DNA of 64,000 bases, taken from Cohnella abietis. Its GTDB lineage: Bacteria; Bacillota; Bacilli; Paenibacillales; Paenibacillaceae. A program made the translations under genes and the position numbers. The first letter of the stretch is position 1; each line of letters begins with the position of its first letter. Shown here one piece after another: positions 21,714 through 56,069 of this stretch. The stretch covers positions 2,261,501 to 2,325,500 of the forward strand of contig NZ_AP019400.1 in NCBI RefSeq assembly GCF_004295585.1, given 5' to 3'. The notes under the pieces are model-generated. The model did no database searches, had not been told where the DNA came from, and was given only the letters and a program-made list of their open reading frames with translations.

Positions 21714-22168
21714 TGCTGCAAAAAATGATAATGAGAGTTGCACCAAGGAGAAATCCCACGTCATCGTCGCAAAATGCAACGATAAGAGCCAAGCTAAGGA
21801 GAAAGCCACCGTTATCGTCGCAAAATGCAACGATAAGAGCCATGCCAAAGAGAAAGCCACCGTCATCGTCGCAAAATGCAACGATAAGAGCCATGCCAAA
21901 GAGAAAGCCCCCGTTATCGTCGCAAAATGCAACGATGAGGGCCACGCCAAGGAGAAAGCCCCCGTCATCGTCGCAAAATGCAACGATAAGAGCCACCCCA
22001 AGGAGAAATCCCCCGTCATCGTCGCAAAATGCAACGATAAGAGCCACCCCAGGGAGAAAGCCCCCGTCATCGTCGCAAAACGCAACGATAAGAGCCATGC
22101 CAAAGAGAAAGTCCCCGTCATCGTCACAAAACGCAACGATAAGAGCCATCCCAAGGAGGACTTTCTTT
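21714..22168. repeat. Tandem array 1: 51-bp units, about 8.5 copies
   Basis: Eight copies at an exact 51-bp step from 21761 (21761, 21812, 21863, 21914, 21965, 22016, 22067, 22118), with a degenerate partial copy before. Each unit can fold a hairpin, ATCGTCGCA and TGCAACGAT around AA, then GATAAGAGCC and a variable purine-rich part. Because 51 is a multiple of three, frames stay open on both strands across the array, giving 17-residue periodic frames. None has a convincing ribosome-binding site, so I treat this as non-coding. It lies after a terminator and before the hisS promoter. Confidence 0.92.
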
Positions 22169-22260: not shown

Positions 22261-22375
22261 TGGTCGGTGAACGGTGTACGATTTTTCAGGCAACGTGGGC
22301 TGGTAACGACTCGCTTGGTGGGTGGTGCACGATTTTTTTATGCAAGGTGGGCGGGTAATTCTAGCTTGGTTACTG
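22261..22375. repeat. Two-copy degenerate repeat, 51-bp step
   Basis: GGTGTACGATTTTT and GGTGCACGATTTTT recur 51 bp apart (22274 and 22325), with GGGCTGGTAA/GGGCGGGTAA following at the same offset. The sequence is unrelated to array 1, which ends 100 bp upstream, but the step is the same. Confidence 0.65.
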
Positions 22376-28460: not shown

Positions 28461-29192
28461 TTAACGACGTGCGTTTCCTTTGCTCCGGTTGCGTTCTCCG
28501 CCTTGCCCGCTCTTATTTTTGTTGCCGCTGCTTGATTTCTTATTATTCGATTTGTTATTGCCGGATTTGTTATTGCCGGATTTGTTATTGCCGGATTTGT
28601 TGTTGCCAGACTTGTTATTGCCAGACTTGTTATTACCAGATTTGTTGTTGTTTTTATTGTCATTTTTGTTATCGTTTTTATTATTTTGATTTTTACCGGA
28701 TAAGGAAACATTTTTGATGTGGAATACGGGAATTCTTACTAGCTCGCGGTCAACGATCAATAACACATTGTCCTTAGATATTTCCGCTAGGAAACCATCG
28801 AGCTTTTCAGGTCCACCGCGGTTGATCTGAATGTGTTTATGGCGTAAACGATTAAGCAGTGATTGGAAGTTAGGGGCGCTTATAAAGCTTCTATGGGCAG
28901 ATCCTCTTGTCCGATTGCCACTGGAATTGCCGCCGCTTTTTCCACCATCATTTCCACCTTCGGTAATACTTTTTACATGAGTACCATTAACATAGACGAT
29001 AACATTTTCTGATAGAACGACTAAAAAATTACCGGGTATTGCAATAAGGACACCTAATACGCTGTCGGGTCCGCCACGGTTAATACGAACCTGTTGACCA
29101 ATCAAGTGATTGGCTTGCACTGCATGATTATGCTGTCCGGTTTGAGAGTGATGCTGGGCTGCCTGCTGTTGTGACTGATAATTAAATAACAT
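28461..29192 (-). CDS. cotB: Spore coat protein CotB-like
   Basis: 243 aa. Two copies of the CotB-type domain: VRINRGGPDSVLGVLIAIPGNF...VYVNGTHVKSI (about 30-78) and IQINRGGPEKLDGFLAEISKDN...VRIPVFHIKNV (about 115-160). A low-complexity C-terminus follows, made of Asn/Lys/Ser repeats with NNKSGN repeated six-residue units (18-bp DNA repeats near 28555-28645) and a basic end. In B. subtilis CotB is a surface coat protein phosphorylated by CotH on its Ser-rich C-terminus. Here Ser residues in the repeats may serve similarly. AAGGAG lies 9 nt before the ATG. Confidence 0.85.
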   Translation of the reverse strand: MLFNYQSQQQAAQHHSQTGQHNHAVQANHLIGQQVRINRGGPDSVLGVLIAIPGNFLVVLSENVIVYVNGTHVKSITEGGNDGGKSGGNSSGNRTRGSAHRSFISAPNFQSLLNRLRHKHIQINRGGPEKLDGFLAEISKDNVLLIVDRELVRIPVFHIKNVSLSGKNQNNKNDNKNDNKNNNKSGNNKSGNNKSGNNKSGNNKSGNNKSGNNKSNNKKSSSGNKNKSGQGGERNRSKGNARR

Positions 29193-29531: not shown

Positions 29532-30068
29532 ATGAGTATTGAATTGCATGGAAACCAAGGTAACACTCGCTGTCGTCCAAAACGCTTCAACTGTAAATGC
29601 AAATGCAGACGGACAGTTAATGGTGGAAGGAATAACGGTGGTCAGAAAAGGATTTGCAAACCAATTGGAGGTCAACAGAATGTAGCGCCACAATATGGTC
29701 ATAAAACTTGGGGTAATTGGGGCGGTAATGAATCCAATTCAGGGACAAGCGGTCATAACCATAGTAGTGGACACAGCAGCGGACGTAGTGGTGGACACAG
29801 CAGCGGACGTAGTGGTGGACACAGCAGCGGACGTAGTGGTGGACACAGCAGCGGGCGTAGTGGAGGACACAGCAGCGGGCGTAGTGGAGGACACAGCAGC
29901 GGGCGTAGTGGAGGACACAGCAGCGGACGTAGTGGTGGACGCAGCGGCGGACGTAGTGGAGGACACAGCAGCGGACGTAGTGGTGGACACAGCGGCGGAC
30001 GTAGTGGTGGACGCAGTGGAGGACACAGCGGCGGGCGTAGTGGTGGACGCAGTGGCGGACGTAGATAA
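29532..30068 (+). CDS. CotG-like Ser/Arg/Gly/His repeat coat protein
   Basis: 178 aa. Residues 1-75 are basic with four cysteines close together (RFNCKCKCRR). From residue 76 to the end there are about 13 copies of an eight-residue unit, GHSSGRSG, sometimes shortened to GRSG. The DNA repeats in 24-bp steps. B. subtilis CotG is likewise a short protein of positively charged Ser-rich tandem repeats, next to cotB and cotH, and phosphorylated by CotH. The repeat sequence here differs from CotG, so the assignment rests on composition and location. GGAGGTG lies 9 nt before the ATG. Confidence 0.75.
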   Translation: MSIELHGNQGNTRCRPKRFNCKCKCRRTVNGGRNNGGQKRICKPIGGQQNVAPQYGHKTWGNWGGNESNSGTSGHNHSSGHSSGRSGGHSSGRSGGHSSGRSGGHSSGRSGGHSSGRSGGHSSGRSGGHSSGRSGGRSGGRSGGHSSGRSGGHSGGRSGGRSGGHSGGRSGGRSGGRR

Positions 30069-41742: not shown

Positions 41743-42240
41743 GGCTGTCGATTAACTGTTAGCAAATTAAAACGTCTACTAAAGCCGACTATAAATTCCA
41801 GTTTTATGTGCTTATTTCGGTTTTCAGGGGTGAAAAGCGACGTTTTTCACAAGTAATCGATTTTTAGCAGCTAATTTTTTTATTCCACAGTTAATCGACA
41901 ACCTAGCTCGGTACCTTATCGCGGCTGAAAGTGGGAAAAGGCGGCTCATAGTGAACGCTCGGTACCTTATTTCGGAATAAAGCGTGGATTGGCGGTTCAT
42001 AGTGAACGCTCGGTACCTTATTGCGGCTGAAAGTGGGAATTGGCAGCTCATAGTGAACGCTCGGTACCTTATTTCGGAAGAAAGCGTGGATTGGCGGCTG
42101 ATAGTGAACGCCCAGTACCTTATTGCGGCTAAAAGTCTGAATTGGCGACCCATAGTGAACTCGGAGGCTGTCGATTAACTGAGGACAAAATCTCTTCGTA
42201 CATACGCTATTTGCATCATATGGGGTGAAAAGTAACGTTT
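41743..42240. repeat. Tandem array 2: five 51-bp units in an inverted-repeat frame
   Basis: Units begin at 41907, 41958, 42009, 42060 and 42111, an exact 51-bp step. Each contains CTCGGTACCTTAT and, near the end, CATAGTGAACG. Two unit types alternate (A with GCGGCTGAAAGTG, B with TTCGGAAxAAAGCGTGG), A-B-A-B-A. The array is bounded by CAGTTAATCGACAACC (41888-41903) and its inverse GGCTGTCGATTAACTG (42166-42181); a further direct copy of the latter is at 41743-41758. GGGGTGAAAAG-n2-ACGTTT occurs on both sides (41827 and 42222). No gene is supported between pdp and 42480. Confidence 0.92.
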
Positions 42241-47246: not shown

Positions 47247-47251
47247 GAGAA

Positions 47252-47434
47252 TACTCCTGCCATGTTCGTTACGACGCTTAATTGTTTTGAACCAATGTTT
47301 GTTTCAAGGGAGCTCTAGATTTCTTAGTGGCTGACATGCCCCCGAAAAGGGAAGTCAAAAGCTGAGCTGCGGGCACCCACCTGCCAAAGCAGGTTCAGAA
47401 ACATGCACGTCGGACGGCATGGCGGGTTTTCTCT
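47252..47434 (+). ncRNA. ssrS: 6S RNA
   Basis: 6S RNA mimics an open promoter and binds sigma-A RNA polymerase. The closing stem pairs CCTGCCATG (47256-47264) with CATGGCGGG (47418-47426), followed by TTTTCTCT as terminator. The Firmicutes-specific blocks TTGAACCAATGTTTG, CAAGGGAGC and GCGGGCACCCACCTG (3' side of the central region), then CCAAAGCAGGTTC, are all present. In B. subtilis bsrA lies next to aspS; here it lies between a DUF624 gene and a DUF1499-like gene. Ends are set by pairing and promoter position and may shift a few bases. Confidence 0.88.
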
Positions 47435-54404: not shown

Positions 54405-54430
54405 TCAATGACCAACAACCAACGGGTCGC

Positions 54431-54832
54431 TTAGTAGCCCTCAGTGCGTTGTTCGCATATGGATGGGTCAATAGGGCTCTCTTAGTAGCCGTGAGTGCGT
54501 TATTCGTGGGTGGAAGGGTCGATGCGACAATCATAGTAGCCGTGAGTGCGTTGTTTGTGTGCGGATGAGTATTTGAGGATGTCTTAGTAGCCCTCAGTGC
54601 GTTATTTGTGTGCGGATGAGTATTTGAGGTTGTCTTAGTAGCCGTCAGTGCGTTATTTGAGTGAGGGAGGAAGAATTCGGCTATCTTAGTAGCCGTGAGT
54701 GCGTTAATTGAGTATGGAAGGGAGAATTCGGCTATCTTAGTAGCCGTGAGTGCGTTATTTGTGTGCGGAGGGAGAATTCAGCTATCCTTAGTAGTCAGTG
54801 TGTTATTTGTGCGTGGAGTCTGGTTACGAGTA
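54431..54832. repeat. Tandem array 3: eight 51-bp units
   Basis: Unit starts at 54431, 54482, 54533, 54584, 54635, 54686, 54737 and 54788, an exact 51-bp step; the last unit is short by a few bases. Each has a conserved head TTAGTAGCCGTGAGTGCGTT plus ATTT, then about 27 bp that drift between units (GGATGAGTATTTGAGG versus GGGAGAATTCGGCTATC). The array follows the exonuclease gene and ends at the stop codon of the frameshifted gene. Confidence 0.92.
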
Positions 54833-55116
54833 TCAGTTTGTTAATAAAATAGGTATTTCAATAGAATGAGTGCCCATAACCTTTATGCCATCTTTTTTGT
54901 CGGAGCCGACTTCAACGCCAATTTTGAATGTTGCTGGTTGATGTGAGGCATTATTATCAGAAACTAAATCGATCACAACTGTTCCTGTGCCGCCACCTGT
55001 TGAAATGTAACTGTGATTTCTTCCGACTTCTATAAAAGTATTCCATTTATTAACCGAACCTGCAGAAGTCCACGTCGTTATGAAGTTCGATTATCTTTTA
55101 CGACTTTTTGAATCAA
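54833..55116 (-). pseudogene. Small gene broken by a one-base frameshift
   Basis: On the minus strand GGAGGAGGTG (55125-55134) lies 8 nt before TTG 55116, which opens IQKVVKDNRTS then a stop. One base out of frame, translation continues for about 80 codons without a stop: TTWTSAGSVNKWNTFIEVG, then NHSYISTGGGTGTVVIDLVS, ending HSIEIPILLTN before TGA at 54833. The total is 284 bp, one base short of a multiple of three, which fits a single deletion near 55082. I do not recognise the family; the product looks like a small beta-rich protein of about 94 aa. A real programmed shift or a sequencing error are alternatives. Confidence 0.6.
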
Positions 55117-55222
55117 GCCAAACACACCTCCTCCATAATGTAACTTCACATAATTTCACCAACTTATACCATATTACGGTAAGCGTCAAATAGCTCCCAA
55201 CTTATCGTGAAGATGAGGGCTT

Positions 55223-56054
55223 CCTCCAACTAAATTTCACCACCGGTGCACGCGGGATAGAGAAGAGCGGCGATACCGACTAATTCGGGTCAGCAAGGCA
55301 AGTTTGAGATAGAGTAAAGCGGAGGGACCGACTAATTGGTGCTACAGTGGCACGTGTGAGATAGAATAGAGCGGCATCACCGACTAATTCGGGATACTGA
55401 GGCGCGTATGAGATGGAGAAAAGCGGGGATACCGACTAATTGGCGAGACAGTGGCACGTGTGAGATAGAATAGAGCGGCATCACCGACTAATTCGGGTCA
55501 GCAAGGCAAGTTTGAGATAGAGAAAAGCGGCGATACCGACTAATTGGCGCTACAGTGGCACGTGTGAGATAGAATAGAGCGGCATCACCGACTAATTCGG
55601 GTTACCAAGGCAAGTTTGAGTTAGAGTAAAGCGGAGGGACTGACTAATTGGCGCGACAGTGGCACGTGTGAGATAGAATAGAGCGGCATCACCGACTAAT
55701 TCGGGAACCTGAGGCGCGTATGAGTTAGAGAAAAGCGGTGAAACCGACTAATTGGTGCGATAGTGGCACGTGTGAGATAGAATAGAGCGGCATCACCGAC
55801 TAATTGGCGAGACAGTGGCACGTGTGAGATAGAATAGAGCGGCATCACCGACTAATTCGGGTTACCAAGGCAAGTTTGAGTTGGAGTAAAGCGGAGGGAC
55901 CGACTAATTGGCGCGACAGTGGCACGTGTGAGATAGAATAGAGCGGCATCACCGACTAATTCGGACAGCAAAGCAAGTTTGAGATAGAGAAGAGCGGCGC
56001 CCCAGACTCATTCCCACCACCAAGGCGCCTTCCAGACAGAGCTGAGGTGAAGCT
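55223..56054. repeat. Tandem array 4: sixteen 52-bp units
   Basis: ACCGACTAATT recurs at 55275, 55327, 55379, 55431, 55483, 55535, 55587, 55639, 55691, 55743, 55795, 55847, 55899 and 55951, an exact 52-bp step, with degenerate units at each end. Two types alternate: one with TTCGGG and CAAGGCAAGTTTGAG (or GAGGCGCGTATGAG), the other with TTGGCGCGACAGTGGCACG. The only break is two adjacent units of the second type at 55743-55846. The array ends about 15 bp from the stop codon of the minus-strand MFS gene. Unit length is not a multiple of three, so it does not code for a repeat protein. Confidence 0.94.
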
Positions 56055-56069
56055 CGCCGAAACAATCCT

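Follow-up and report, generated by a model that had tools for sequence, protein, structure and literature searches.

How a non-coding tandem array can hold its unit length while the bases inside its units change is the question raised by array 4, which lies in a 64-kb window (the whole stretch of DNA analysed here) of a 7.06-Mb, single-contig genome. Anchoring the register on GACTAATT/GACTCATT, with anchors from 55278 to 56005, gave 15 units (Table 1), and degenerate part-units extend beyond the registered ends to about 55223 and 56054. The sixteen units of the original prediction are therefore reached only by including a degenerate part-unit from one end. Of the 14 steps in this register, thirteen measure 52 bp and the final one 51 bp, so the claim of exactly 52 bp with no length errors was wrong by one step. 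The periodicity itself is far beyond chance, since self-identity is 0.646 at lag 52 and 0.749 at lag 104 compared with 0.21-0.32 at the remaining lags from 45 to 59, and TRF reported both a 52-bp and a 104-bp array for the same stretch. Seven units match one 41-bp stretch at 41/41 positions and the units alternating with them match at 30-33/41. This A/B alternation, predicted to be broken once, is real, and the break, where two identical-type units adjoin, was placed at 55765-55868. Nine exact cores of the family to which array 4 belongs (family G, below) lie within it, all on the minus strand.

Table 1 Coordinates of array 4, its parts and related features in the window.
Feature	Position	Strand	Basis and remarks
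Array 4, family G	55245..56023	-	15 registered units; register, TRF, family assignment
104-bp higher-order repeat in array 4	55349..55972	-	41-bp unit matching and lag-104 identity
Last unit of array 4	55972..56023	-	Reached by the 51-bp step; diverged toward the array edge
Spacer between arrays 3 and 4	54818..55244	.	Stops break minus-strand frames
Family A array, 51 bp, core CTTAGTAGC-n5-GTGCGTTAT	54430..54817	+	TRF, family assignment; just upstream of array 4
Family B array, 51 bp	41906..42160	+	TRF, family assignment; same genome-wide class
Family E array, 51 bp	21743..22158	+	TRF, family assignment; same genome-wide class

Array 4 lies in the gap between an exonuclease gene and an MFS gene (54405-56069, 1665 bp), which consists of two arrays and a stop-broken stretch. 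No ORF of at least 100 aa occurs in this gap, in agreement with the prediction that the array is non-coding, and because 52 is also not a multiple of three a coding repeat was ruled out. A CRISPR array was ruled out as well, since the spacers inside an array are near copies rather than unique sequences. Across the window, Rfam gave a single match at gathering level, the 6S RNA gene at 47251-47432, away from the array, which argues against a known RNA family. For the neighbouring exonuclease gene, the nearest relatives come from Cohnella species. Across 22 related loci (21 from Cohnella and one from Paenibacillus), the corresponding gap is 473-548 bp long and none contains such an array. The relatives' gap holds a small minus-strand gene (eight loci aligned, two translated), which we take, by eye, to carry a JAMM-like motif; no recognisable copy of it is present at 54405-56069 in the window. 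Because the relatives carry this gene at that place, the empty-site comparison gave no clean insertion point. Taken together, the 1665-bp gap with its two arrays, the missing small gene and the array-free relatives indicate that array 4 is a young feature of its lineage. Other repeats in the window include a 52-bp remnant of 1.9 copies at 22273-22370, near the family E array, which by eye resembles a decayed family F, and tandem repeats at 28534-28683 (periods 15/30/45 bp) and 29762-30064 (period 24 bp), which overlap ORFs and are probably protein repeats.

Array 4 is one of many. We ran TRF on 100 evenly spaced 20-kb stretches (2.0 Mb) and the window, and on 40 further stretches as a second batch, several of which were picked for known occurrences of families A and F. 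Periods of 51 (45 rows) and 52 (29 rows) dominated the first sample. Counted after merging and with a minimum of three copies, the first batch contained 69 arrays. The 2.0 Mb of stretches accounted for 65 of these, and scaling up gives an estimated 230 or so intergenic 51/52-bp arrays per genome. In total, 105 arrays were found in 40% of the genome, and 104 of these were assigned to seven core families, A-G. The seven seeds were picked by eye on the first batch, so its 69/69 assignment is in-sample; 35 of 36 arrays in the second batch were assigned. The lone array outside the seven families lies at 4310351 (genome 4305001-4325000) and has a 50-bp period and 6.7 copies. Units are 52 bp long in families F and G and 51 bp long in A-E, with 100 of the 104 arrays carrying their family's own TRF period and two of the 20 family G arrays having a period of 51 bp. 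A called gene lies mostly inside the array in only 7/104 cases. Among 37 same-genus genomes searched, family A was found in its own genome only, and the family F core forms arrays in at least two other same-genus genomes. The families may also occupy different zones, as many sampled D arrays lie near the terminus and several C arrays near the origin.

Within each unit, two half-sites of about 9 bp flank a variable 5 bp, together forming a core, and the rest is a divergent spacer. Between arrays of one family the core half-sites are 0.80-0.97 identical and the spacers 0.34-0.63, and spacer identity between families is 0.34. The core is an imperfect dyad in six of the seven families; family A is hardly palindromic. 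The best inverted-repeat score of the array consensuses averages 6.87/10 compared with 6.29 for shuffles, and the signal is weak unit by unit. The inner half-sites differ among families but remain complementary: 41/63 pairs match, compared with 26/63 when halves are swapped between families (p = 0.001), a result favoured by the fact that core centres were chosen partly by pairing. A similar geometry occurs in 24 published Bacillus consensus units, where an odd-centred inverted repeat scores 6.21/9 compared with 4.75 for shuffles and 4.67 for even-centred geometry, and reaches P < 0.05 in 10/24 units.

Complementary half-sites would also be expected if the arrays act as RNA, being transcribed and folding through their inverted repeats into hairpins that serve as small RNAs or protein sponges. 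RNA-seq reported in PMC8625621 shows that 52-nt repeats are transcribed in B. coagulans, which is consistent with this idea, as is the between-family complementarity, read with the same caution over the choice of centres. However, two-unit folds in families A, B, F and G are close to shuffled sequence (family mean z from -0.74 to +0.60), with family G at mean z +0.12 and +0.39, so that an RNA hairpin as the main function of array 4 is unsupported. Only C (on the opposite strand) and E (on both strands) come near z = -2, and D is weak. Half-sites show no covariation within families beyond shuffles, and an RNA function gives no reason for either the 51-52 bp unit or the helical phasing described below. 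We regard an RNA element as improbable.

The original prediction also held that length is kept more strictly than sequence. In kind this is so: adjacent units differ by 5464 substitutions and 166 gap events, a ratio of 33:1. The absolute form of the claim does not stand given the 51-bp step in array 4, the family G arrays with a 51-bp period, and the roughly 9% of steps elsewhere that are off; across the 104 assigned arrays, 766/842 steps equal their own array's median and 76/842 differ by 1-4 bp, after steps outside 46-58 bp (missed or misregistered sites) were dropped. For comparison, the substitution:gap ratio is 11.5:1 in alignable intergenic DNA from 28 Cohnella pairs and 24-43:1 over whole loci, coding plus intergenic. 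The depletion of indels within arrays is thus only about threefold and applies relative to intergenic DNA alone, since whole loci reach 24-43:1. Length constraint is stronger between arrays than within them, because spacers keep their length even where their identity is mostly lost.

A within-array ratio that does not exceed that of whole loci is also what a neutral or selfish satellite would show. Under this explanation the arrays are functionless, slippage or unequal exchange and drift shape their sequence, and constant length reflects recent family ancestry and amplification by whole units. Several properties of the arrays agree with it, including the identical units inside the higher-order repeat, homogenised centres with decayed edges (edge units are 0.79 identical to the array consensus, compared with 0.87-0.90 for inner units), the restriction of family A to one species and the array-free orthologous place in the 22 relatives. 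What bears against it is that drift alone should erase both period and phase, and both are kept.

We determined this phase from the distribution of A/T (W) along the unit. W power at harmonic 5 is 3.09 times that of shuffled units, with the next-highest harmonic at 1.28, and ranges from 2.3 to 5.0 by family. Every family has its highest W power at this harmonic, which corresponds to a period of 10.2-10.4 bp, or five periods per unit. A/T is richest at the core centre itself (0) and at distances of about 10 and about 21 bp from it, with G/C in between. All seven families share one phase, which, measured from the core centre, lies between -12 and +10 degrees for whole units and between -20 and +32 degrees for spacers alone. 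Across the 104 arrays the phase coherence is R = 0.96, or 0.83 for the spacer alone, and 0/20000 permutations of the spacer alone reach the observed value. Spacer-only harmonics 4 and 6 are phase-coherent too, as expected from leakage of a 26-bp window. Purine content has no peak at harmonic 5 (0.88). As controls, 7373 intergenic windows outside arrays give a W power of 1.13 at this harmonic, and 19208 coding windows give 1.06. For array 4 itself, harmonic-5 W power is 3.14; its strongest single spectral line is at 2.17 bp and the second is at 10.4 bp. Helical phasing thus supplies a possible cause for the fixed length, for which the original prediction gave none.

The phasing extends beyond this genome. 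The 24 Bacillus consensus units have a harmonic-5 power of 2.92, which 0/2000 shuffles reach, and nine arrays from six other Cohnella loci average 2.40 (P = 0.0005), with individual values of 1.05-4.03 and almost no phasing in the arrays of two loci, L012 and L015 (1.05 and 1.19). Measured from the dyad, however, the A/T phase is close to 0 degrees in Cohnella but about 178 degrees in those ten Bacillus units whose dyad is significant, and the layout therefore differs between the groups. A 52-bp phased unit has another point of symmetry, offset by 26 bp, at which exactly this opposite phase holds, and the Bacillus site may sit there. Since spacers without shared identity, within or between families, keep their A/T phase, and unrelated Bacillus families keep both period and phasing, we consider a purely neutral satellite unlikely, though it remains the more serious competitor to a function at the level of the DNA than an RNA role.

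The arrays also tend to lie at convergent gene ends. Convergent gaps hold 31/94 arrays compared with 95/735 in the background (p = 4e-6), and divergent gaps hold 7/94 compared with 153/735; these counts cover arrays with both flanking genes called by a home-made codon scorer, and the background still includes the array gaps. By GC skew, the origin lies near 0 and the terminus at about 3.6 Mb. Relative to these, arrays have a leading-strand purine skew of 0.142, compared with 0.047 for 638 other intergenic gaps, and it is positive in 84% of arrays and 75% of the other gaps. It is still positive in 7/8 arrays between two lagging-strand genes. The cores themselves are oriented relative to replication in 69/104 arrays overall (p = 0.001). 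This bias is strongest in A (14/17) and F (18/22), followed by G (14/20) and D (10/15), and is absent in B (5/12), C (3/8) and E (5/10) taken whole. Whole-genome lists of exact matches gave 18/20 for A, 7/10 for D and 9/12 for G; in the second batch, family G ran contrary to the bias (3/7). When B and E were divided by half-site sequence, a split made after the data were seen, the counts were 0/5 for E1, 9/9 for E2, 2/6 for B1 and 8/10 for B2; the B counts rest on 100 of the 108 sites, and those for E omit two arrays. At one family E array, at 6138 kb, the self-complementary cores are listed on both strands. Mutation bias, the orientation of insertion or selection could each underlie the polarity.

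Polarity of this kind would fit a single-strand step at the replication fork, and a core of two half-sites around a variable centre resembles the target of a recombinase. The arrays could thus be recombination or transposition targets whose copy number is set by recombination between units. However, no recurrent gene lies beside them: the 183 flanking proteins have no recurrent family and form only small clusters (the largest of five) of common superfamilies, which also argues against a gene-linked mobile cassette. A genome search for the Y1 transposase family PF01797 gave no match, and a REP/RAYT system was rejected on that result. Recombination also leaves the phasing of the spacers unexplained, and we give this explanation little credence. 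Separately, in the genome stretch 70001-90000, one of the two HU-family genes (74433-74702) sits a few hundred bases upstream of a family C array at 75082.

Fixed length, free sequence, one site per five helical turns and phased A/T together point to the geometry of double-stranded DNA. With five turns per unit, every unit shows the same helical face. The reading that we favour, with middling confidence, is that the class is a DNA-level element that presents sites on one face to a DNA-bending or DNA-wrapping dimer and changes its copy number by whole units. Conservation in the class lies in geometry rather than sequence: each unit has one half-site core, and its A/T patches follow the helical pitch. 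A dimeric protein would bind the cores in register along that face and may thereby shape or constrain the DNA between gene ends. Candidates are a nucleoid protein such as HU, which is encoded twice in the genome, a topoisomerase, or a protein not yet recognised; the analysis found no binding protein, and no gene family recurs beside the arrays. Unequal exchange or replication slippage is the probable source of copy-number change, and gain or loss of whole units in this way would account for the decayed units at array edges as well as for the 104-bp higher-order repeat. That the geometry is conserved is no proof of a benefit to the cell.

More tentatively, the constant-size satellites of Firmicutes in general could be helical-phase arrays: thousands of five-turn units forming platforms for wrapping or bending, nucleosome-like in layout, at gene ends, oriented relative to replication and bound by a putative dimeric protein, their sequence drifting freely provided that the half-sites and the A/T phase persist. 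If the length does equal five helical turns, the 52-nt class becomes a testable element of DNA architecture rather than a curiosity. The predictions would be bending, protein protection with the period of the unit and dependence on spacing, all in culturable soil bacteria, and such arrays could be sought by helical-phase A/T power instead of by sequence similarity.

Nucleosome-positioning DNA, in which A/T and G/C alternate at the helical pitch, is one known system with a similar pattern, as the arrays also alternate A/T and G/C in phase about a centre. The arrays differ in being tandem 51/52-bp units in bacteria, and we know of no histone that binds such units. A second comparison is with the REP/BIME elements of E. 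coli, which are likewise intergenic inverted repeats in many copies, although the inverted repeats here are imperfect and family A is hardly palindromic. Units here, in arrays registered with cores on one strand, all run head to tail rather than alternating, neighbouring arrays of different families can differ in strand, and the Y1 transposase family associated with REP has no match in the genome. According to the gyrase-binding results in PMC6379681, gyrase prefers BIME-2, and its motif has a GC periodicity of 10.75 bp that is likened there to nucleosome patterns. By this analogy gyrase may be a candidate partner, with the reservation that the period here, 10.2-10.4 bp, is shorter.

The closest system is the published class of 52-nt constant-size tandem repeats of Bacillus and other Firmicutes, whose length was left unexplained (Subirana & Messeguer, PMC8161180). 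These repeats have constant size, variable sequence and recurring short signals together with their reverse, and Paenibacillus is said to be rich in them (PMC8161180). The same authors proposed a protein requiring repeats of constant size, stabilisation of the nucleoid or a role for RNA, and tied helical turns to the 20-21-nt class only (PMC8161180). On its sequence, array 4 is a member of the 52-nt class. The class is defined by a period of 51-53 nt with at least four repeats, and array 4 has 15 units at 52 bp; it is non-coding, its genome holds equal-length families of different sequence (seven families, 104/105 arrays), and its host is placed in Firmicutes by the Cohnella relatives of the neighbouring gene. 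Both also contain short characteristic sequences whose reverse often occurs within one and the same repeat. In contrast to the published class, lengths of 51 and 52 bp are family-specific here. The terms palindrom-, dyad and leading strand are absent from PMC8161180, and we found no description of the core geometry, 52-nt helical phasing or polarity in the literature searched, which excluded the 2020 J. Bacteriol. paper of Subirana & Messeguer. What our analysis adds to the 52-nt class is the core geometry, the helical phasing of A/T, the convergent placement and the replication polarity.
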